Part shown: in pieces, positions 35,937 to 48,885 of the stretch
How positions within the stretch are numbered: position 1 is the first letter of the stretch
Layout: every line of letters starts with the position of its first letter
NCBI RefSeq assembly: GCF_021390395.1
Contig: NZ_JAJUWT010000021.1
Span: 1 to 64,000 of the forward strand
From: Saccharothrix sp. S26
Lineage (GTDB): Bacteria; Actinomycetota; Actinomycetes; Mycobacteriales; Pseudonocardiaceae
DNA length: 64,000 bases
Reading direction: 5' to 3'
Position numbers and translations under genes: made by a program
The notes under the pieces: model-generated
Told to the model about the DNA's origin: nothing
Seen by the model: the letters and a program-made list of their open reading frames with translations, nothing else
Databases searched by the model: none

Positions 35937-35942
35937 CTCCCC

Positions 35943-36140
35943 GGTGCTGCGGTGCTGCGGTGCTGCGGTGCTGCGGTGCTGCGGTGCTGCGGTGCTGCGG
36001 TGCTGCGGTGCTCGCTGGCTGTGGCTGTGGCTGTGGTTGGTGCGTTGGTGCTGTGGCAGGGCCGGGTGGAGGCGGGGTGGGAGAGGGGCGGGGTGGGAGA
36101 GGGGCGGGATGGGAGAGGGGCGGGATGGGGGTTGGGCACG
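35943..36140. repeat. Nested minisatellites (8-bp, 6-bp, 16-bp units), G-rich
   Basis: Eight perfect copies of GGTGCTGC (35943-36006), then GTGGCT hexamers (about 36015-36036), then three 16-bp units CGGGGTGGGAGAGGGG, CGGGGTGGGAGAGGGG and CGGGATGGGAGAGGGG (36073-36120) plus a partial copy. Reading frames through the array give only repeat peptides and lack start signals. The G-runs on the plus strand could fold as G-quadruplexes. Confidence 0.8.
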
Positions 36141-38699: not shown

Positions 38700-38777
38700 G
38701 GACCGAACCGTAACGTGGCCGGAATCGAGGGTCGCCGGTCGTTGCCGCCGTGCCCGGTGGCGGAGAGGGTGGACGGT

Positions 38778-39752
38778 GTGGAGCGGGAGGTCTTGGTGAT
38801 CGGGTACGGCGGTGCGGCGCTGACCGACATCGCCGGCCCGGCGGACGTGTTCGCCGGCGCGAACCGGGCGCTGGTGGCGGCCGGTTCGCGGGACGGCTAC
38901 CGGGTGCGGCTGGCCGGGCTCGGCGGCGGGTTCGAGGTGACCGGAGGGCTGCGGATGGAGGCCGAGGACCTGCGGGAGGTGTCCGGCGGGGTGGACACGG
39001 TCCTGGTCGTCGGCGGCTTCACGTTCGCCGACGCGGCCCGGGACGCCGAGCTGCGCCACCACCTGCGGCGGGTCGCGTCCGGCGCGCGGCGGGTGACGAG
39101 CGTGTGCACGGGCGCGTTCGTGCTGGCGGCGGCCGGGCTGCTGGACGGCGCACGCGCCACGACGCACTGGGCGTACTGCGACCGGCTCGCGGCCGACCAC
39201 CCGTCGGTGCAGGTCGTGCCGGACGCGATCCACGTGCGGGACGGGCGGCTGGTCACGTCCGCCGGCGTCACCGCGGGCATCGACCTCGCGCTGGCGCTGG
39301 TCGAACGCGACCACGACGCCGCCCTGGCCCGGTTCGTCGCCCGCTGGATGGTGGTGTTCCTGCAACGCCCCGGCGGCCAGTCGCAGTTCAGCGTGCGGTC
39401 ACGCGTGCCGCCGGTGCGCGAGCCGGGCCTGCGGGCCGTGCTGGACGCGGTCGTCGACGACCCGGCGGCCGCGTGGACGGTCGAGGAGATGGCGCGCCGA
39501 GCGGCGATGAGCACCCGGCACTTCTCCCGCGTGTTCCCGCGCCGGGTCGGCGTCTCGCCCGCCCGGTACGTCGAGCGGGTCCGGGTGGAGGCCGCGGCGA
39601 CCGCGCTGGAGGCGGGCGACGAAGGGCTCGACGTGGTGGCCAGGCGCACGGGTTTCGGTTCGGCGGAGACGTTGCGCCGGGCTTTCCTGCGGGTGCTCGG
39701 CGTGACGCCGGGCGGGTACCGCGACAGGTTCCGCACCACCGGTGCGGCATAG
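38778..39752 (+). CDS. GlxA-family AraC regulator with DJ-1-like domain
   Basis: A 324-residue protein. The N-terminal half (about 1-185) is a DJ-1/PfpI-like fold: VLVIGYGGAALTDIAGPADVFAGANRAL, VGGFTFADA, SVCTGAFVLAAAGLLDGARATTHW, with Cys in the nucleophile-elbow position. The C-terminal half is an AraC HTH pair (WTVEEMARRAAMSTRHFSRVFPRRVGVSPARYVERVRVEAA and DVVARRTGFGSAETLRRAF). It probably controls the adjacent DJ-1/PfpI enzyme gene 13 bp downstream. The GTG is placed 9 nt after GAGAGG. Confidence 0.87.
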   Translation: MEREVLVIGYGGAALTDIAGPADVFAGANRALVAAGSRDGYRVRLAGLGGGFEVTGGLRMEAEDLREVSGGVDTVLVVGGFTFADAARDAELRHHLRRVASGARRVTSVCTGAFVLAAAGLLDGARATTHWAYCDRLAADHPSVQVVPDAIHVRDGRLVTSAGVTAGIDLALALVERDHDAALARFVARWMVVFLQRPGGQSQFSVRSRVPPVREPGLRAVLDAVVDDPAAAWTVEEMARRAAMSTRHFSRVFPRRVGVSPARYVERVRVEAAATALEAGDEGLDVVARRTGFGSAETLRRAFLRVLGVTPGGYRDRFRTTGAA

Positions 39753-40410: not shown

Positions 40411-41349
40411 TCAGCACGTCTCGGGCAGGCCGAACAGCGGGAACCGGTCCGACGGGAACGTGATGATCTCCGCGATCTCGTCGCCCTCGATGCGCAGCAC
40501 GTCCAGGGACACCGGCTTGAAGTGCTCCTCGCCGGGCTTGCGGGCGTAGGCGGCGAAGGCCGGCTGCCGGTTCGCCCGCGTCTCGATCACCTTCCACTCG
40601 CCGAACGCCTCCGGGCCCACCATCACCGGCGACCAGATGGCGATCACGGCGTCCCGGCCGCGGTGCCACTCGGGGTCCGGCGGCATCGTCCACGTGACGT
40701 CCTCGCGCAACGCCGAGGCCATCAGCCGCACGTCGCAGCGCTCGGTGGCCTCCACGAACTTGCGGATCACCGCCTTCTCCCGCGGGTTCGGCCCGCCCGA
40801 CCAGTCGGCACGCCGTTGCGGCAGGTGCTTGCGCATGGTCACGCGGGCGCGTTGCAGCGCGCTGTTCACCGCGGGCACGGTGTCCTCCAGCAACGCCGCC
40901 GTCTCGTTCGCCGGCCAGCCCAGCACGTCCCGCAGCACCAGCACCGCCCGCTGCTTGGCGGGCAGGTGCTGCACCGCGGCCAGGAACGCCAGCTCGATCG
41001 TCTCGCGCGCGACCACCTCCGCGTCCGGCTCGGCGTCGAGCAGGGCGTCCGGGAAGGGCTGCAACCACGGCACGTCCGCCGCCGGCATCGCGTCGGTGGT
41101 GGCGTGCGCGGGACGGCGGTCGATCACGTCCAGGCACGCGTTCGTGGCGATCCGGTACAGCCAGGCGCGGAACGACGAACGACCCTCGAAGCTGTCCCGG
41201 GCGCGCCACGCCTTGAGGAACGTCTCCTGCACCAGGTCCTCCGCCTCGTCGAACGAGCCCAGCAGCCGGTAGCAGTGCACCCGCAGCTCGTGCCGGTGCC
41301 GTTCGGCCTCCCGCGTGAAGTCGACGGTCATCTGCGCAACCTCGCTCAT
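40411..41349 (-). CDS. ECF sigma-70 factor with SnoaL-like C-terminal domain
   Basis: A 312-residue sigma factor (ECF41/SigG-like). Sigma2 is LGSFDEAEDLVQETFLKAWRARDSFEGRSSFRAWLYRIATNACLD; sigma4 is LPAKQRAVLVLRDVLGWPANETAALLEDTVPAVNSALQRAR. The C-terminal SnoaL_2 domain (about residues 205-312) replaces a separate anti-sigma factor and modulates activity. ATG 41349 is chosen since GGAGGG lies 5 nt upstream. It is divergent from an MFS gene with 105 bp between. Confidence 0.88.
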   Translation of the reverse strand: MSEVAQMTVDFTREAERHRHELRVHCYRLLGSFDEAEDLVQETFLKAWRARDSFEGRSSFRAWLYRIATNACLDVIDRRPAHATTDAMPAADVPWLQPFPDALLDAEPDAEVVARETIELAFLAAVQHLPAKQRAVLVLRDVLGWPANETAALLEDTVPAVNSALQRARVTMRKHLPQRRADWSGGPNPREKAVIRKFVEATERCDVRLMASALREDVTWTMPPDPEWHRGRDAVIAIWSPVMVGPEAFGEWKVIETRANRQPAFAAYARKPGEEHFKPVSLDVLRIEGDEIAEIITFPSDRFPLFGLPETC

Positions 41350-41454
41350 GGTCACCCTCCGGGCTTGTACGGTGACGTGCCGGTCGCACGCCGCACAACA
41401 TGTGACCCGGCGGGCCCGGGAAACTCATCGGTCGCGCACGGATCGGGGGAGCAG

Positions 41455-42651
41455 GTGGTCGGGGGCACGGGGTTGCGCGCGGTGTTCGCGGTGCCGGAGT
41501 TCCGGGTGCTGTGGTCGGCGGCGGTGCTGTCGACCGTCGGCGACCAATTGGCCCGGGTGGCGCTGTCCGTGCTGGTGTTCCAGCGCACGGGGTCGGCCGC
41601 GTGGACGGCGTCGACCTACGCGTTGACGATGCTGCCCGCGCTGGTGTCGGGGGTGCTGCTGACGGGCCTGGCCGACCGGTACCCGCGGCGGACCGTGATG
41701 GTGGTGGCCGACGCGGTGCGGGCGGTGCTGCTGGCCGTGATGGCGGTGCCGGGCGTGCCGCTGCCCCTGGTGGCCGCGTTGCTGGTGGTCGCGCAGTTGG
41801 CCGAGCCGCCGTTCGCCGCGGCCCAGGGCGCGCTGCTGCCGTCCGTGCTGGGGGACAAGTACGAGGCCGGGCAGTCGGTGCACCTGATCACCCACCAGGC
41901 CGGGCTGCTGCTGGGGTTCGTCGGCGGCGGGCTGGTGGTGGCGTGGCTCGGCACGTCCGGCGCGCTGCTCGCCGACGGGGTCACGTTCGCGTTGTCGGCG
42001 TTGCTGCTGAGGTTCGGCCTGCGGCAACGCCCGGCTCCGGCGTCCGTGCCGGCCGCGCACGTCCGGATCAGGGCGGGCGCGGCGCTGGTGTGGCGGGACC
42101 GGCGGCTGCGGTTGCTGGTGGGCCTGGGGTGGCTGGCGCTGTTCACCGTGGTGCCGGAAGGGCTGGCCGCGCCGTTCTCGGCGGAGGTCGGCGCGGGCGC
42201 GGCGGGGGTCGGGCTGCTGCTGGCCGCCGACCCGGCCGGGATGGTGCTGGGCACCGTGCTGCTGCGGTTCCTGCCGACGTCGACGCGCGTGCGGCTGCTC
42301 GGGCTGCTGGCCGTGGCGACGGCGTTGCCGCTGGTCGGGTACCTGTTCGCGCCGAACCTGGTGGGTGCGGTGGCGTTGCTCGCGGTCAGCGGCGCGTTCA
42401 GCGCCTACCAGGTGACGGCGGGCGCGACGTTCGTCCGCCTGGTGCCCGACGAGCAGCGCGGCCAGGCGTTGGGCTTCGCCCGCAGCGGCCTGGTCGCGGC
42501 GCAGGGCATCGGCGTTGCGGCGGGCGGGCTGCTGGCCTCCGCGACGGGCTCGGCGACGACCGCGATCGCCGTGGCGGGCATCGCGGGCACCGTCCTCGCG
42601 CTCGCCGCCACCACCGCGTGGACCCGCGTCGCGCCCGCGGCGGTGCCCTGA
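41455..42651 (+). CDS. MFS transporter (EntS/DHA3-like)
   Basis: A 398-residue, twelve-helix major facilitator. It begins GLRAVFAVPEFRVLWSAAVLSTVGDQLARVALSVLVFQRTGS and has the signature loop GLADRYPRRTVMVVADAVRAV between helices 2 and 3. It resembles the macrolide and siderophore exporter group. GTG 41455 has GGGGGAG 4 nt upstream. Its stop lies 2 bp before the next MFS gene, so the two are one operon. Confidence 0.88.
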   Translation: MVGGTGLRAVFAVPEFRVLWSAAVLSTVGDQLARVALSVLVFQRTGSAAWTASTYALTMLPALVSGVLLTGLADRYPRRTVMVVADAVRAVLLAVMAVPGVPLPLVAALLVVAQLAEPPFAAAQGALLPSVLGDKYEAGQSVHLITHQAGLLLGFVGGGLVVAWLGTSGALLADGVTFALSALLLRFGLRQRPAPASVPAAHVRIRAGAALVWRDRRLRLLVGLGWLALFTVVPEGLAAPFSAEVGAGAAGVGLLLAADPAGMVLGTVLLRFLPTSTRVRLLGLLAVATALPLVGYLFAPNLVGAVALLAVSGAFSAYQVTAGATFVRLVPDEQRGQALGFARSGLVAAQGIGVAAGGLLASATGSATTAIAVAGIAGTVLALAATTAWTRVAPAAVP

Positions 42652-42653
42652 CG

Positions 42654-43808
42654 GTGCTCCGGCGCAACCGGTCGTTCCTGTTGTTGTGGGCGGGTCAGGC
42701 CGTGTCGCTCGTCGGGTCGCAGGTGACGGTGGTCGCGGTGCCCTTGGTGGCGGCGTTGCAGTTGGGGGCCGGAGCGGTCGAGGTCGGGGTGGTGGCGGCT
42801 TGTGGGCGGTTGCCGTACCTCGTGTTCGGGTTGCCGGCCGGGGTGTGGGTGGACCGGTTGCCGCGGCGGGTGGTGGCCGGGGTGTGCGCGGTCGGGCAGG
42901 CGGTGAGCCTGGCGGTCGTGCCGGTGGCGGCGGGCTTGGGGGCGCTGTCGGTGGGGTTGTTGGCCGCGGTGGCGGCGGTGGCGGGGGTGTTCGCCGTGTT
43001 CGGTGACATCGCCGGGCTGGCGCTGGTGCCCATGGTGGTGCCCGCCGGGCAGTTGACGCGGGCTCAGGGGGTCGTGGAGGTGGGGCAGGCCACCGCGCAG
43101 GTCGCCGGGCCCGCGTTGGGCGGGTGGCTGGTCGGGGCGGTCACGGCCGCGGGCGCGGTGGCGGCCGACGCGGTCAGCTTCCTCGTCGCGGCGCTGACCC
43201 TGCTGGGGGTGCGGGTGGTCGAACGACCGCGGGCCGGCGCGGGGGTGTGGACCGGGGTGCGGGCCGTCTTCGGTCACCAGGGGTTGCGGCGGGTCACGCT
43301 CTGCACGGCCACGCACGTGTTCTGGTTCAACGCCTTCACCGTCGTGGTGCTGCTGCACCTGGTGTCGGTGGTGGGGCTGTCGGCCGCACGCGCCGGCGTG
43401 ACGCTGTCCGTCGGTGCGGTCGGCGGGCTGGTCGGCGCGCTCGTCGCGGCCCGGCTGGGCGAGCGGTGGGGCCGCCGGCGCACGATGGTCGCCGCCGTGC
43501 TGACCACCGGGGCGGCCCAGGCCCTGGTCGCGGTGGACGGCCTCGTGATCGGCGCGGTGGCGGTGATGTGGTTCGCGCTCCAGGTCTACAACGTGCACCA
43601 GGTGCCGGTGCGCTACGAGGCGACGCCCGCCGCGCTGCACGGTCGGGTCAACGCGACCATCCGCACGGCCGTCTGGGGCACCGCGCCCGCCGGCGCGCTG
43701 GTGGGCGGCCTGCTCGGCGACGTCGTCGGCACGCGGACCACGCTCGTGCTCAGCGGCCTCGGCGCGGCGGCGGCGTGCCTGTGGCTGGTCCGGGCGCGCG
43801 TCGGCTGA
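42654..43808 (+). CDS. MFS transporter
   Basis: A 384-residue, twelve-helix transporter beginning VLRRNRSFLLLWAGQAVSLVGSQVTVVAVPLVAAL, with LPAGVWVDRLPRRVVAGV as the helix 2-3 loop and RLGERWGRRRTMVAAVLTTGAAQ as the helix 8-9 loop. It is a paralogue of the preceding MFS, 2 bp upstream. Substrates are unknown; the tandem pair suggests export of a related compound, or a heteromeric transporter. Confidence 0.85.
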   Translation: MLRRNRSFLLLWAGQAVSLVGSQVTVVAVPLVAALQLGAGAVEVGVVAACGRLPYLVFGLPAGVWVDRLPRRVVAGVCAVGQAVSLAVVPVAAGLGALSVGLLAAVAAVAGVFAVFGDIAGLALVPMVVPAGQLTRAQGVVEVGQATAQVAGPALGGWLVGAVTAAGAVAADAVSFLVAALTLLGVRVVERPRAGAGVWTGVRAVFGHQGLRRVTLCTATHVFWFNAFTVVVLLHLVSVVGLSAARAGVTLSVGAVGGLVGALVAARLGERWGRRRTMVAAVLTTGAAQALVAVDGLVIGAVAVMWFALQVYNVHQVPVRYEATPAALHGRVNATIRTAVWGTAPAGALVGGLLGDVVGTRTTLVLSGLGAAAACLWLVRARVG

Positions 43809-43884: not shown

Positions 43885-43919
43885 TCACCAGATCTTGTCG
43901 CGCATGGCGGCGCACCTCC
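43885..43919 (-). CDS. Micro-ORF MRDKIW with Shine-Dalgarno (copy 1)
   Basis: On the minus strand, GGAGG (43919-43915), 9 nt, then ATG CGC GAC AAG ATC TGG TGA ending at 43885. It encodes the hexapeptide MRDKIW. It is the third and last copy in the reading direction. The 20 bp at the 3' end are identical in all three copies, and the next base differs but always leaves a start codon (ATG here). Confidence 0.4.
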
Positions 43920-43966
43920 CCTCGACGTGGCTGTCGGCGGTCCGGGCACAGGCGGGCATCGGGGGG

Positions 43967-43999
43967 TCACCAGATCTTGTCGCGCACAACCACACCTCC
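43967..43999 (-). CDS. Micro-ORF MRDKIW with Shine-Dalgarno (copy 2)
   Basis: On the minus strand, GGAGG (43999-43995), 7 nt, then GTG CGC GAC AAG ATC TGG TGA ending at 43967. It encodes the same peptide as copies 1 and 3, here with a GTG start. The flanks between copies are not repeated. Confidence 0.4.
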   Translation of the reverse strand, partial: GGVVVRDKIW

Positions 44000-44031
44000 G
44001 TCCTGTCTCGACACGGCTGCCACCTGCGGTT

Positions 44032-44065
44032 TCACCAGATCTTGTCGCGCACCGCGCTCACCTCC
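44032..44065 (-). CDS. Micro-ORF MRDKIW with Shine-Dalgarno (copy 3)
   Basis: On the minus strand, GGAGG (44065-44061), 8 nt, then GTG CGC GAC AAG ATC TGG TGA ending at 44032. It is the first copy in the reading direction. The TGA of an 18-codon ORF lies directly after its GGAGG, suggesting coupling. Confidence 0.4.
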
Positions 44066-44114
44066 AGTGGGTTGCGTCACCCCGGTAGCGGCTGACATCG
44101 ATACAGGTCACCAT
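44058..44114 (-). CDS. Putative 18-residue leader ORF
   Basis: Minus-strand ORF ATG 44114 to TGA 44058, encoding MVTCIDVSRYRGDATHWR. GGAGGG lies 8 nt before its ATG. Its stop is directly behind the GGAGG of MRDKIW copy 3. Too short for statistical coding evidence; the good spacing and its position in front of the array are the support. Confidence 0.35.
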   Translation of the reverse strand: MVTCIDVSRYRGDATHWR

Positions 44115-44124
44115 TACTGTGACC
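44106..44124. promoter_or_regulatory. Inverted repeat before the GGDEF gene
   Basis: GGTCAC-CATTACT-GTGACC, a perfect 6-bp inverted repeat with a 7-nt spacer, 49 bp upstream of the diguanylate cyclase ATG and overlapping the ribosome-binding region of the minus-strand leader ORF. It could control both directions. Confidence 0.4.
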
Positions 44125-44172: not shown

Positions 44173-45498
44173 ATGGGCAGAGCGCGTTCGACGTCGTCGG
44201 GCGATCGACGCTGGTCACTATGGTCCCTGCCGCGGCAGGCCCTGGTGTACGTGCTGTCGGTGGACCTGCTCGCGGTGCTCGCGATCGCCGCCGCCACCAC
44301 CTGGCCCGTGCCCGCCGGGTCGTGGACCACGTTCGCCGTCCTGCTCGGCTGCGCCGCGCTGCACCTGCACTCGTCCCGCTGGATCGAGCGCATCCGCCGC
44401 GACCACAGCCACCTGCCGCACGTCGACCTGTGCAGCATCTGGATCCTGGCCGGCGCGCTCGTGCTGCCACCCGTGCTCGCCGTCGCCCTGGTCGTGCTGA
44501 TGTACGCGCACCGCTGGTGGGTCGTCGGCCGTTGGGACGCCTCACGCCCACCGCACCGCAACGTGTTCACCACGGCGATGATGGTGCTGGCCACGCTCGC
44601 CGCGGGGACCGTGGCGGGCCTCACCGGCCTGCGCGACCACCTGCGCGACGGGCAGCCCGCCGGCCCGCTCGACCTCGTCGGCCTGGTCGGCGCGGGCGCG
44701 GCGCAGTGGCTGGTCAACACCGCCCTGGTGGCCGCGGTGATCCTGCTGACCGTGCGGCCCCGCTCGGTGCGCGACGCCCTCGGCAGCGGCGCGGACAACC
44801 TGCTCGAAGCGGGCCAGCTCGCGCTGGGCGGGTTCGTCGCGCTCGCGGTCGCGTGGTGGCCCGGCTTCGCGCTGCCGATGGTGGTGGCGGCCGTCGCCCT
44901 GCACCGCACCGTGCTCATCCACCAGCTCGAGCTGGCCGCCCGCACCGACGCCAAGACCGGCCTGCTCAACGCCGAGGCCTGGCACCTGCAGGCGACGCTG
45001 GAGCTGCAACGCACCCGCCAGCAGCCGCCCGGCTCGCGGGTCGGCCTGTTCATGATCGACGTCGACCACTTCAAGGACATCAACGACACCCACGGCCACC
45101 AGACCGGCGACCTGGTGCTGCGGCGCATCGCGGCGGCGTTGGAGAGCGCGGTGCGGCGCGGTGACGCGGTCGGTCGCTTCGGCGGCGAGGAGTTCGCCGT
45201 GCTGCTGCCCGGTGTCGACCACGAGGAAGCCGTGGCCATCGCCGAGCGGATGCGCACCGAGGTCCACCGGGTGCTCGTGGACGACGGCGACGGCGGCACG
45301 GTCGCCGGGCTCACCGTCAGCATCGGCATCGCCGTGTGGCCCGAGGTCGCCGAGGACACCGTGTCCGGGCTGCTCGCCGCGGCCGACGCGGCGCTGTACG
45401 AGGCCAAGCGGCTCGGCCGCGACCAGGTGCAGGCGGCGGGCCGTCACCGCCGGGCACCGTGGACGCCCGCGGCCCGCGCCGAGCGCCCCGGGGTGTAA
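44173..45498 (+). CDS. Membrane diguanylate cyclase (GGDEF)
   Basis: A 441-residue protein with six to eight N-terminal membrane helices (about residues 20-260) and a C-terminal GGDEF domain. The active-site loop is RFGGEEFAVLL (GGEEF at residues 337-341) and an inhibitory I-site RRGD lies five residues before it, so it is probably an active and product-inhibited c-di-GMP synthase. Motifs TDAKTGLLNAEAW and MIDVDHFKDINDTHGH are complete. No EAL domain is present. It lies 111 bp upstream of the CHAT-TPR gene. Confidence 0.93.
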   Translation: MGRARSTSSGDRRWSLWSLPRQALVYVLSVDLLAVLAIAAATTWPVPAGSWTTFAVLLGCAALHLHSSRWIERIRRDHSHLPHVDLCSIWILAGALVLPPVLAVALVVLMYAHRWWVVGRWDASRPPHRNVFTTAMMVLATLAAGTVAGLTGLRDHLRDGQPAGPLDLVGLVGAGAAQWLVNTALVAAVILLTVRPRSVRDALGSGADNLLEAGQLALGGFVALAVAWWPGFALPMVVAAVALHRTVLIHQLELAARTDAKTGLLNAEAWHLQATLELQRTRQQPPGSRVGLFMIDVDHFKDINDTHGHQTGDLVLRRIAAALESAVRRGDAVGRFGGEEFAVLLPGVDHEEAVAIAERMRTEVHRVLVDDGDGGTVAGLTVSIGIAVWPEVAEDTVSGLLAAADAALYEAKRLGRDQVQAAGRHRRAPWTPAARAERPGV

Positions 45499-45609: not shown

Positions 45610-48600
45610 GTGGACCTCGGTGCTCCGCACGGAATCCGCTTCCGCTTCGAAGCGGGGCTGCTGCGTGCCGTCCTGCTCGACGTGCACCGCAAGGCGCCCG
45701 TCGACGCCCGCGAGGAGCTGACCGCCGAGTCCGGCGCGCGTGACCTGCTGGTCGAGCAGACCCGCGACGGGCACGTGCGCGCGGTGCTGCGGCACCGGTT
45801 CGACCTGCCCGCGCCCGCCGACTGGCGGCTCGCCGTGGCCGCGCCCGCCACCGCCACCGACGACGGGGTGACGTTCGCCCTGCCCGACGCGGTGACGCTG
45901 CGCGTGTCCGGCTCCGCGCCGTGCCGCGTCGAGGACGGCGGCGTGTGCGTGCGGCTGCCCGCGGGCCGGTCCGACCTGGACGTCACGGTGGTCAGCGAGC
46001 CGGTGTTCGAGGTCGGCGACACGGTCGTGGTGTGCCGCCCGGACCAGGTGCGCGAGGCCGCGGTCGTGGTGTCGTGCCTGCCCGCCGACCGCGTCACGCC
46101 CGTCGTCGCGCTGCGGCCCGCGGACGCCTCGTCGCACCGGCACGACCGGCTGCTGGCCCAGCTGCTCGACGCCACCGGCGTGCGGCGCGTGGTGTTCCTC
46201 GCCGAGCCGGACATCGACGTCGAGGTGCTGCCCGACCTGCCCGAGCGCCTGCACCTGCCGGGGGAGGACCCCGCCGGGCTGACCGCCAAGGCGTGGGAGC
46301 TGCTGCGCGGCGGCGAGCCCGAGCGCACCCTCGACGTGGCGCCCGACGCGGACTTCGTCGCCGCCCTGTTCACCGCCCTGCGCACCGGCGCGGTGCTGCG
46401 CGTGGCCGACGACGCGCCACCCGTGCCGTTCGCCGCGCACAACCCGGACGACGGTGACGAGGCCGTGCTGGTCGAGCACACCGGAGAGGTCGACGACCTG
46501 GTCGCCGCCTGCTACGCCCACCACCGCGGCGCGCGGCTCGTGATCACGCCGAAGCCGGACCTGGCCGAGGTGGGCGCGGTGGTGGCCGAGGAGCAGGAGC
46601 GGGTCACCGCGGCGGCCGGCGCGATCGGTGACGCGGTGAAGGGCATCGGGTTCGTCGAGGCGCTGTGGCGGTACCTGTCCACCGGTGGGCACGACCCGTT
46701 CGCGGCGGTCGAGGCGGTGGTCACCGCGCAGGTGCCCGCCGAGGCGATCGCGGAGGTGGGCGACCGGCGGCTGACGGCGTTCACCACCGGCCTGCCGTAC
46801 TCCTTCGTGCACACCGAGTCCGTCAACTGGGCGCGCAAGCCGATCGGGCACGTGGTCGCCGACCCGGCGCTGGTCGTGCTCACCGAGCTGCACCGGGCGG
46901 GCGTGGCGCGCGAGCCCGGCGCGTTCAGCCTGGTGGTCGACTCCGGGGCGTTCCGCGCCGCGGCGGACGACCGGACGGCCGCGCCGCCGGGCCACCACAC
47001 CCACCCCATCGTGCTGCCCGAGCAGGACGCCTCACCCGACGTGCTGCGTGACCTGGTCGCGGACCTGCCGGTCGAGCTGCTGTTCTTCAACTGCCACGAC
47101 GCCGACGACGCGATCGTGCTGGGCGGCGACACGCTGCCCGACGACGACATCCCCGTGACGCTGCCGCACCGGCCGATCGTGTTCAACAACTCGTGCCGGT
47201 CGTGGACGCGGCTGGGCCGCGAGTTCGTCCGCGCTGGTGCGCGCGGCTACATCGGCACCCTGTGGACGATCCCGCCGAACCTCGCCGCCGGGTTCGCCCG
47301 CACGGTCGTGCGGCGGCTCACCGTCGAGGAGACGCCTGCCGCGCGTGCGATCGTCAACACCGGCACGCCCGGCGGCATCGAGCGGTCCTACCTGTACGTC
47401 GGCACGGTCAACGGCCGGTTGGACGAGTGGCGCGACCGGTCCACCACGGCCGCGGAGGCCGCGCTGGCCGGGTGCGAGCTGCTGGCCGCCGCCGCCCGCG
47501 ACTGCGCCGGGCCGGTGTCGCCGGTGCTGCACCGGGAGCTCTGCGCGCTGCGCGAGGTCGCCGAGGCGGGCGAGGCGACCGACACCCCGTCGTACGCGGC
47601 CGTGCTCTTGGCCGAGCTGAAGCTGGAGGACGACGACGAGCGGGCCGCCGTCCTGGTGGAGCGGATCGACGCCCTGCTCGGCGGGCTCGACCTGCCCGAG
47701 GACGAGCTGGAAGCGCTCTGGGCGACCAGGTTCGAGCTCACCGGCGCCCGGCACGAGCGGCGCGGGGAATACGGGGCCGCGCTCGCGGACTTCGAACGGT
47801 GTGTGGGCTTGGGCGACGCGTGCCCCGATCGCGCGGACGTCCTGCTGCGGATGGCGAGGCTGCTGATGCGCGAAGGCAGAACCGACGAAGCCGGACAGGC
47901 GGCGCGGCTGGCGTACGACGAGCACCGCGCGAGCGGCGACGGACCCGGGCAGCTGGAGTCGGTCACCGTGCTCGATGGCCTCGGTGACGCCGACCCCGCG
48001 ACCGCGCTGCGCTACGCCGTCGAGGGCCACGACCTGGCCGAGGAGCTCGGCGACCGGGCCCGGCAGGCGGCGTTCAAGCTGGCCGAGTGCGACCGCCGCC
48101 GTGACGCGGGTGACCTGGCCGAGGCGATCGAGGCCGGGTCGCGTGCCGTGGAGCTGTTCCGCGCCCTGGGCGACGACCGGCAGGAGCTGGCCGCGCTGCG
48201 CCGGCTCGGCGCGTGCCACCGGGACCGGGGCGACCTGGAGACCGCGCAGCACTACGCCCTCGTGGGGCTGGCCCGCGCCGAGCAGGTCGGCGCGGCGGCC
48301 GAGGTGGCGTCGTTCCACGACGACCTGGGCGAGGTGCTCACCGCGCGCGGCGAGCACGGCGCGGCGCTGGGCCACTACCGGCACGCGGTGTCCAAGCTCG
48401 TCGCCACCGGCGCGTGGGAGCGCGGCGCGGAACTGCTGCCGCACCTGGCCGTGGGCGCGGTGCGGGCGGGCGACCCGGAGGCTCTGTGGACCGCCGCCCT
48501 GTCCGGCGGCCTGATCTGCGAGGTCGCGCCGCGCGAGGTGTGGGCGTCGGTCCTGCCGCTGGTGGTGGACTCGATGAAGCGGGCGATCGAGACCGGGCCG

Positions 48601-48885
48601 CTGGAGCTGACCGAACGCGGCATGACCGACTTCGCCAGCGCGGTGACCGCGGGCCGGCGCGAGGACATGCCGTTCCAGGTGGGCCTGCTCGCGGACGTGG
48701 TGGTCGTGCTGCTGGCGTGGCTGATGGACCGCGCCGACGCGCACATCCTCGCGTTCGCCCGCGAGCTGGACCGCACCAGCGGCGGCGTGCTCGACCTGGT
48801 CGGCTACGTGTCCGTGCCCTACGCCGACCGCGCCCGCAACCCCGGGACGGGCCGGTCGCGGCCTACCAGTGGCGGCCCGCGCTGA
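45610..48885 (+). CDS. CHAT protease-like protein with TPR-rich C-terminus
   Basis: A 1091-residue protein. The N-terminal about 380 residues have no recognised domain. A CHAT (caspase HetF-associated with TPR) domain spans about residues 400-610, with the likely catalytic pair His496 (LLFFNCHDAD) and Cys529 (IVFNNSCRSW) and the family signature GARGYIGTLWTIPPNLAAGFARTVVRRL. From about residue 690 to 1000 come TPR-like helical repeats (GALADFERCVGLG, EAIEAGSRAVELFRALGDD, AALRRLGACHRDRGDLETAQHYALVGLARA and others). CHAT-TPR proteins act as caspase-like proteases in defence or regulated cell death; the target is unknown here. GTG 45610 start. Confidence 0.8.
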   Translation: MDLGAPHGIRFRFEAGLLRAVLLDVHRKAPVDAREELTAESGARDLLVEQTRDGHVRAVLRHRFDLPAPADWRLAVAAPATATDDGVTFALPDAVTLRVSGSAPCRVEDGGVCVRLPAGRSDLDVTVVSEPVFEVGDTVVVCRPDQVREAAVVVSCLPADRVTPVVALRPADASSHRHDRLLAQLLDATGVRRVVFLAEPDIDVEVLPDLPERLHLPGEDPAGLTAKAWELLRGGEPERTLDVAPDADFVAALFTALRTGAVLRVADDAPPVPFAAHNPDDGDEAVLVEHTGEVDDLVAACYAHHRGARLVITPKPDLAEVGAVVAEEQERVTAAAGAIGDAVKGIGFVEALWRYLSTGGHDPFAAVEAVVTAQVPAEAIAEVGDRRLTAFTTGLPYSFVHTESVNWARKPIGHVVADPALVVLTELHRAGVAREPGAFSLVVDSGAFRAAADDRTAAPPGHHTHPIVLPEQDASPDVLRDLVADLPVELLFFNCHDADDAIVLGGDTLPDDDIPVTLPHRPIVFNNSCRSWTRLGREFVRAGARGYIGTLWTIPPNLAAGFARTVVRRLTVEETPAARAIVNTGTPGGIERSYLYVGTVNGRLDEWRDRSTTAAEAALAGCELLAAAARDCAGPVSPVLHRELCALREVAEAGEATDTPSYAAVLLAELKLEDDDERAAVLVERIDALLGGLDLPEDELEALWATRFELTGARHERRGEYGAALADFERCVGLGDACPDRADVLLRMARLLMREGRTDEAGQAARLAYDEHRASGDGPGQLESVTVLDGLGDADPATALRYAVEGHDLAEELGDRARQAAFKLAECDRRRDAGDLAEAIEAGSRAVELFRALGDDRQELAALRRLGACHRDRGDLETAQHYALVGLARAEQVGAAAEVASFHDDLGEVLTARGEHGAALGHYRHAVSKLVATGAWERGAELLPHLAVGAVRAGDPEALWTAALSGGLICEVAPREVWASVLPLVVDSMKRAIETGPLELTERGMTDFASAVTAGRREDMPFQVGLLADVVVVLLAWLMDRADAHILAFARELDRTSGGVLDLVGYVSVPYADRARNPGTGRSRPTSGGPR

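Follow-up and report, generated by a model that had tools for sequence, protein, structure and literature searches.

Among described systems, the LCP/SIP peptides of Streptococcus and other Firmicutes, whose genes are single-copy, are the nearest precedent in gene layout for the locus described here. Microcin C combines a heptapeptide precursor gene with the MFS exporter MccC and an adenylating partner enzyme. In the passages of PMC10518010 that deal with LCP/SIP and its receptor RopB, a mature peptide of about eight residues is encoded by a leaderless ultrasmall ORF that is divergent from the receptor gene, and the peptides are hydrophobic, re-imported and bound by cytosolic RopB. The RRNPPA pheromones Phr3T and Phr105 are described, in part of PMC11343458, as having more than one pheromone copy per locus. 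The biarylitide precursor gene bytA has 18 bp and encodes a pentapeptide, and such genes are reported to have been overlooked by annotation pipelines (PMC13417212). Some membrane diguanylate cyclases sense signals, for example AI-2 by a dCACHE cyclase. The consulted portions of a review of c-di-GMP inputs name AI-2 and BDSF, make one general mention of peptides and contain no peptide-sensing cyclase (PMC8846402).

The locus considered here lies in a window of 64,000 nucleotides, which is the whole stretch of DNA that was analysed, and consists of three tiny ORFs for one hexapeptide together with the following neighbours and sites:

41455–42651, plus strand: MFS1, MFS transporter gene of an exporter-type branch (EntS and similar being the closest models with a name); proposed peptide exporter
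42657–43808, plus strand: MFS2, between MFS1 and the array
43885–43905, minus strand: tiny ORF 3, ATG start, MRDKIW, TGA stop
43915–43919, minus strand: GGAGG ribosome site of tiny ORF 3
43967–43987, minus strand: tiny ORF 2, GTG start, MRDKIW, TGA stop
43995–43999, minus strand: GGAGG ribosome site of tiny ORF 2
44032–44052, minus strand: tiny ORF 1, GTG start, MRDKIW, TGA stop
44061–44065, minus strand: GGAGG ribosome site of tiny ORF 1
44092–44120, plus strand: putative promoter-like site of the cyclase gene (CTGACA, 17 nt, TACTGT), identified by eye and similar in some relatives
44107–44123, no strand: inverted repeat GTCAC-N7-GTGAC that overlies the promoter-like site and was seen only within the window's clade
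44173–45498, plus strand: membrane diguanylate cyclase, with a membrane domain (about residues 1–255) and a GGDEF domain; proposed receptor

Like those of LCP, the ORFs of such arrays are ultrasmall and leaderless, the mature form of the peptide being a predicted one here; they are divergent from a cyclase gene whose product may be the receptor. Unlike LCP, the peptides are mostly polar with tryptophan or charged residues and often come in 2–19 gene copies, and their partner is an actinomycete membrane GGDEF protein rather than a cytosolic receptor of the RopB/RRNPPA type; because of this difference in receptor we do not class the arrays as an LCP system. A second form of the gene, a single ORF with in-frame repeats, would deliver several copies from one locus, as in Phr3T and Phr105, but where RRNPPA systems rely on secreted propeptides that are processed outside the cell and sensed by Rap, the present loci combine minimal genes or leaderless repeats with a cyclase. 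The shortest ORFs, such as GTG AGC AAG GAC CTC TGA in L089, are comparable to bytA in size, although biarylitides require a P450 partner and no recurring P450 was recognised beside the arrays. The combination of a tiny peptide gene with an MFS gene recalls microcin C, yet no adenylating partner was recognised here. The use of a membrane GGDEF enzyme as the (here proposed) receptor is shared with the AI-2-sensing dCACHE cyclase, whereas the membrane domain at these loci has no Pfam match in any of the four cyclases scanned. No published description of an array–cyclase system was found among the matches listed, and five of the peptide strings do not occur in the literature text searched, a coverage from which subscription journals were mostly absent.

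Three identical tiny ORFs and their conservation

On the minus strand of the window, DTG-CGC-GAC-AAG-ATC-TGG-TGA (MRDKIW, six codons and a stop) occurs three times. The 18-nt core, CGCGACAAGATCTGGTGA, is present in three exact copies (43885–43902, 43967–43984 and 44032–44049, minus strand), and GGAGG lies 8, 7 and 9 nt from the start in ORFs 1, 2 and 3 in transcription order, whose starts are GTG, GTG and ATG, in agreement with the repeats, starts and spacings given by an earlier, sequence-only reading of this DNA. No further match to the core was found in the window at up to three mismatches, where shuffles give a mean of 0.03, and a degenerate whole-ORF pattern run over the 9.08 Mb genome returned only these three MRDKIW ORFs. 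The array lies between a plus-strand MFS gene ending at 43808, with which it is convergent, and the plus-strand GGDEF gene starting at 44173, with which it is back to back. A near palindrome, ACCAGATCTTGT, was noted by eye inside the core. Elsewhere in the window, at about 35940–36030, a tandem repeat region gives AVLRCCG repeats in its translations.

The sequence-only reading had also placed an 18-codon ORF ahead of the three. The window does contain it (MVTCIDVSRYRGDATHWR), yet its reading frame is not conserved: in several relatives its ATG has become ATT, an in-frame TAG occurs, or the end stop is missing. It was rejected as an array member on this ground, and its segment overlaps the promoter-like site of the cyclase gene. 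A general BldD-like operator was likewise rejected, with a GTNAC pair in only 2 of 24 array loci, both of the MRDKIW type.

Copies of MR[DE]KIW were found at up to two mismatches in 21 of the 25 genomes of the genus, three of which carry MREKIW in both copies, and the peptide also occurs in further genera of the Pseudonocardiaceae. A degenerate pattern of ribosome site, any start and any synonymous codons matched in 24 of 297 family genomes, at 54 places, and the reversed control gave zero. A scan of named genomes yielded 17 stretches, 15 of them from Saccharothrix, Actinosynnema pretiosum, Umezawaea, Lentzea, Kutzneria viridogrisea and Actinophytocola (Saccharothrix and Kutzneria both being Pseudonocardiaceae). 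The other two look like chance and were set aside: a single copy in Arthrobacter terrae (L044) with no GGDEF match nearby, and a single copy in an Armatimonadetes MAG (L046) with a 71-bit GGDEF match 4.7 kb away. A collection made solely with the 15-mer CGCGA[CG]AAGATCTGG comprises 63 distinct copies, of which 31 are preceded by ATG, 31 by GTG and one by TTG, and 62 are followed by TGA. One genome (G206; L022/L039) has a degenerating array, with one intact MRDKIW copy, a decayed third copy, and another copy whose altered stop lets it read in frame into the intact one.

The earlier reading had suggested looking among relatives for the same peptide in changed codons. For MRDKIW this gave nothing, none of the 54 places having a synonymous codon although the pattern permitted them; across 21 arrays, as described below, such changes predominate. 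We would expect the MRDKIW codons to be common ones in such G+C-rich genomes, which would bear on the lack of synonymous change without fully explaining it, and since no synonymous codon occurs in the 54 places, a constraint at the nucleotide level may also act on the MRDKIW family.

Pairing of the arrays with a membrane cyclase

The gene back to back with the array encodes a protein with a GGDEF domain (Pfam E 4e-42) whose GGEEF motif is intact and preceded by an RxxD (alignment A1), and G337, G338 and E340 are invariant across 38 aligned proteins. By its GG(D/E)EF motif the protein qualifies as a diguanylate cyclase, and enzyme activity is predicted. The AlphaFold model (mean pLDDT 90.6; 90.8 for the N-terminal part alone) predicts with high confidence an all-helical membrane domain of about 255 residues. 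Foldseek comparison of this domain with solved structures gave 353 matches at E ≤10 and none at E ≤0.001, the best having E 0.5; among the best 50 of the 353, the top probabilities (0.66–0.69) belong to the vitamin-binding S-components RibU and ThiT at E 0.65–1.7, which is a lead only. In a set of 119 phylum-wide genomes the membrane domain was found at E ≤1e-25 in the window's genome only, and a profile of the whole cyclase reached E ≤1e-70 in 99 of 394 genomes of the class, in some through the GGDEF domain only. Right after the cyclase gene, on the same strand, lies a gene for a large TPR protein of about 1091 aa (45610–48885), which adjoins the cyclase in the three genus members examined and was not found in five loci of other genera.

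In all eight relatives that were read over 16 kb and had been found by the ORF pattern, the array is immediately upstream of an orthologous GGDEF gene and divergent from it, and a cyclase orthologue is also the divergent neighbour in each of five named loci checked. When 61 genomes, eight of the 25 genus members among them, were searched with the cyclase, all ten with a match of at least 60% identity carried MR[DE]KIW, and in the four array-less members of the genus the best match did not exceed 43% identity. Of 12 genomes from another peptide's genus, 5 contain MRDNTWT; its 29 places all lie beside the cyclase and make up one cluster per genome. Peptide types track cyclase clades in the one tree computed, in which the label 'none' is outdated for L158, L075, L147, L201, L203 and perhaps L198, a candidate peptide ORF having later been found there. 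Comparative sequence evidence of this kind supports the array–cyclase pairing well.

Other peptides and two gene forms

Cyclase paralogues of other Actinomycetes have upstream arrays on the opposite strand, with 2–19 tiny ORFs that usually each have their own ribosome site. Their peptides include MxSWDW, MxDRDW, M(R)VERDW, MRTREH, MxNRDN, MxSRDN, MxDRDF, M(x)SKDL (19 copies) and MRDNNWT; other families of the class add MRDNTWT, MRDTTWS, MRDNTWS, MRDNNWN, MRDVNWT, MRGNSWD, MRANSWD and MRDNHWTP, as well as MRSVQWA, MRGWKWS, MRHTSWS, MRGVNWV and others. Elsewhere, one small ORF with in-frame repeats occupies the same place on the same strand, for example MNGNEWVRHGNEWFTGNEWFAGNEWFAGNEWFTGNEWLYQASC; repeats of this kind include STDWT (six copies), GNEW (six), RPNDWR (three), SEWH (four) and DDSNWVR (three), and one locus has both forms (MRDTNWVLRDTNWSW, four copies). 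These loci show two forms of gene that would deliver a peptide repeatedly. No signal peptide was recognised in the in-frame-repeat ORFs, which would need proteolysis. At some cyclase loci a lone tiny ORF stands in the array's place; MLRGVTWI, MATREG, MRDRDM and MSNRDS recur between loci, and others could be chance. The genome of the window has three cyclase loci with three peptides: MRDKIW, RPNDWR repeats, and MRNRDM with MFDNRDM. The second of these cyclase paralogues lies on contig C5 near 111298 (L158/L101) with the divergent peptide ORF MSTITTNAGSTRPNDWRTGRPNDWRR, and the third on contig C24 near 67263 (L239) with divergent MRNRDM and MFDNRDM. The link to the cyclase, the other peptides and the in-frame-repeat form all go beyond what the sequence-only reading had seen.

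Among 121 usable cyclase loci, 48 have a detected array of two or more ORFs on the strand opposite the cyclase gene, and not one has such an array on the cyclase's own strand. Because the loci had been picked by their cyclase, it is this comparison of strands, and not the neighbourhood, that constitutes the test. The 121 were left from an input of 149 after removal of 19 duplicates, two loci that were too short and seven without a located cyclase start. The array detector missed a known two-copy array (L082); applied to 276 kb of other sequence as a control, it returned zero arrays. By script, 58 of the 121 loci have neither array nor in-frame repeat; several of these hold a lone tiny ORF, and in others no peptide ORF was found. 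The in-frame-repeat detector is unspecific when used alone, with 15 opposite-strand hits at array-less loci, of which those at L090 and L110 are probably fortuitous, and 19 hits on the same strand, among them several that merely read real repeats in antisense. It also missed L080 and L106, which were recognised by eye.

Selection on the encoded peptide

Altogether 155 copies in 27 arrays were collected by their last three residues and stop. All have an in-frame start no more than seven codons upstream (ATG in 115, GTG in 37, TTG in 3), and the stops are TGA in 149, TAA in 4 and TAG in 2. In 21 arrays with 112 copies, codon differences from residue 3 onward are synonymous in 39 cases and non-synonymous in one (pN/pS 0.005), a count made on copies that resemble one another in nucleotides and have a ribosome site, a start and a stop, whatever their residues, and omitting L089 and arrays of fewer than three copies. 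At residue 2 of the same arrays there are 18 synonymous and 14 non-synonymous differences. A looser count over 64 kb with a 12-nt core, chance matches included, gave 76 synonymous and 100 non-synonymous differences (pN/pS 0.29). One array spells a single serine as both AGC and TCC. The excess of 39 to 1 from the third residue on argues that the product of the arrays is a translated peptide, and translation of the tiny ORFs under selection on the peptide is a well-supported prediction. The idea that the conserved unit comprises ribosome site, start and peptide, put forward from the window's three copies, is upheld by the arrays at 48 cyclase loci and by the codon test.

Transporter genes beside the arrays

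MFS1 and MFS2 stand in tandem at 41455–43808. An MFS1 orthologue lies across the array from the cyclase in seven of the eight relatives, one of which (L041) has a second MFS gene in between, MFS2 being found elsewhere in this one relative of the eight; no MFS match was found at L035. Beyond the genus, an MFS1 orthologue adjoins the array in three of the four other genera examined. For the two MFS proteins scanned, the closest models are of exporter type (TIGR00900, EntS), with every score under the curated cut-off. Of 32 array loci, 28 have an MFS gene alongside, compared with 23 of 61 loci at which no array was detected, one of the 61 being counted twice (Fisher p 3e-6, uncorrected for relatedness). 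At 20 longer array loci the gene is present in 19, in 16 by ORF list and in 3 by match search. The window and 19 of these 20 loci have a convergent gene downstream of the array. The exception is L165, where a different gene on the array's own strand takes the MFS place. The 1.5–1.9 kb upstream of the peptide loci L071, L085, L093 and L122 showed no MFS gene. On the far side of the MFS pair, 40411–41355 encodes an ECF-type sigma factor with a C-terminal SnoaL domain.

Discussion

We tentatively propose the following account of how these loci might work. Each tiny gene would be translated from its own ribosome site into a finished hexapeptide, MRDKIW, and several gene copies would raise the output of this one peptide. 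MRDKIW would serve as a ligand specific to the membrane diguanylate cyclase whose gene stands back to back with the array, and it would most likely leave the cell without a leader, probably through the adjoining MFS transporter. The membrane domain of the cyclase may sense the peptide, such that peptide level sets c-di-GMP in a leaderless pheromone loop, and paralogues with different peptides in one genome could form parallel channels. We favour a leaderless pheromone read by the cyclase because of the many copies of a processing-free peptide, the matched presence and absence of its partner, the several peptide types per genome and the exporter-type neighbour. On balance we think it probable that the array serves to make large amounts of a leaderless peptide as the adjoining cyclase's ligand, probably exported and acting as a pheromone that sets c-di-GMP; export of the peptide, its binding by the cyclase, the direction of the effect and any cell-density role are parts of the model that we infer. 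A broader statement, that Actinomycetes possess an undescribed family of private channels in which a leaderless pheromone of 5–8 residues, encoded by arrays or in-frame repeats, is exported by a dedicated MFS protein and read out by a cognate membrane cyclase, with the peptides setting c-di-GMP directly and one genome able to run three channels side by side, seems to us evenly poised between right and wrong.

Such peptides might instead remain inside the cell, each a tiny regulatory subunit acting directly on the cyclase or the MFS protein and never secreted. The lack of a recognised signal peptide would fit this, the in-frame-repeat form could serve as a multivalent cytoplasmic ligand, and the MFS gene is not universal. 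We nevertheless regard it as unlikely: an exporter-type gene stands beside 28 of 32 array loci, and we know of no precedent for unanchored six-residue cytoplasmic regulators in many identical gene copies. It is conceivable, if improbable, that the arrays encode RiPP precursors, among which multicopy ones occur, or antibiotic peptides for which the MFS protein is the exporter, with the cyclase merely timing their production. Biarylitide precursors, as part of PMC13417212 describes them, are equally small (18-bp genes), and a ryptide-exporter model matches one of the two MFS proteins scanned weakly (E 9.6e-6, 24.9 bits, cut-off 575). Visual inspection of the ORF lists of the 20 longer loci, with no family search behind it, revealed no recurring tailoring enzyme that we recognised, however, and Pfam found none among eight proteins of the window, one of which (38723–39752, out of frame) was uninformative; MRDKIW has a single aromatic residue, and what stays constant beside it is a cyclase orthologue that is present or absent together with the array. 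A tailored RiPP finds no support, given that the recurring neighbours are a membrane diguanylate cyclase and, in most cases, an MFS transporter.

That reading had also raised nucleotide repeats with another role, and a leader controlling the neighbouring genes. The repeats sit just upstream of the promoter-like site, are nucleotide-identical in the 54 MRDKIW places and contain the near palindrome seen by eye in the core, as might be expected if they regulated the cyclase gene as operators in the DNA or as an RNA element and the ORFs were incidental. The codon test strongly disfavours this, its 39 synonymous differences to one in 21 arrays including the serine spelled AGC and TCC; moreover, start codons vary within ATG, GTG and TTG only, and in-frame repeats stand in for the array elsewhere. 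We consider a role as operator or RNA element very improbable. Short ORFs with tryptophan codons do look like attenuator leaders, and L165 has a downstream gene on the array's strand, but a translated attenuation leader is hardly credible: what follows the array in the window and at 19 of the 20 longer loci is a convergent gene, not a structural gene on the array's strand, and several peptide families (MxNRDN, MSKDL, MRTREH) have no tryptophan.

The arrays suggest an undescribed family of minimal peptide signals in many actinomycetes, with genes whose minute size probably lets them escape annotation pipelines. The sequences of the proposed ligands follow directly from the genome and can be synthesised, and the question is therefore directly testable. 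In filamentous actinomycetes c-di-GMP controls development, and a leaderless pheromone read by a membrane cyclase would, if the proposal is true, give c-di-GMP a peptide input encoded in the genome and represent a new type of cell–cell signal.
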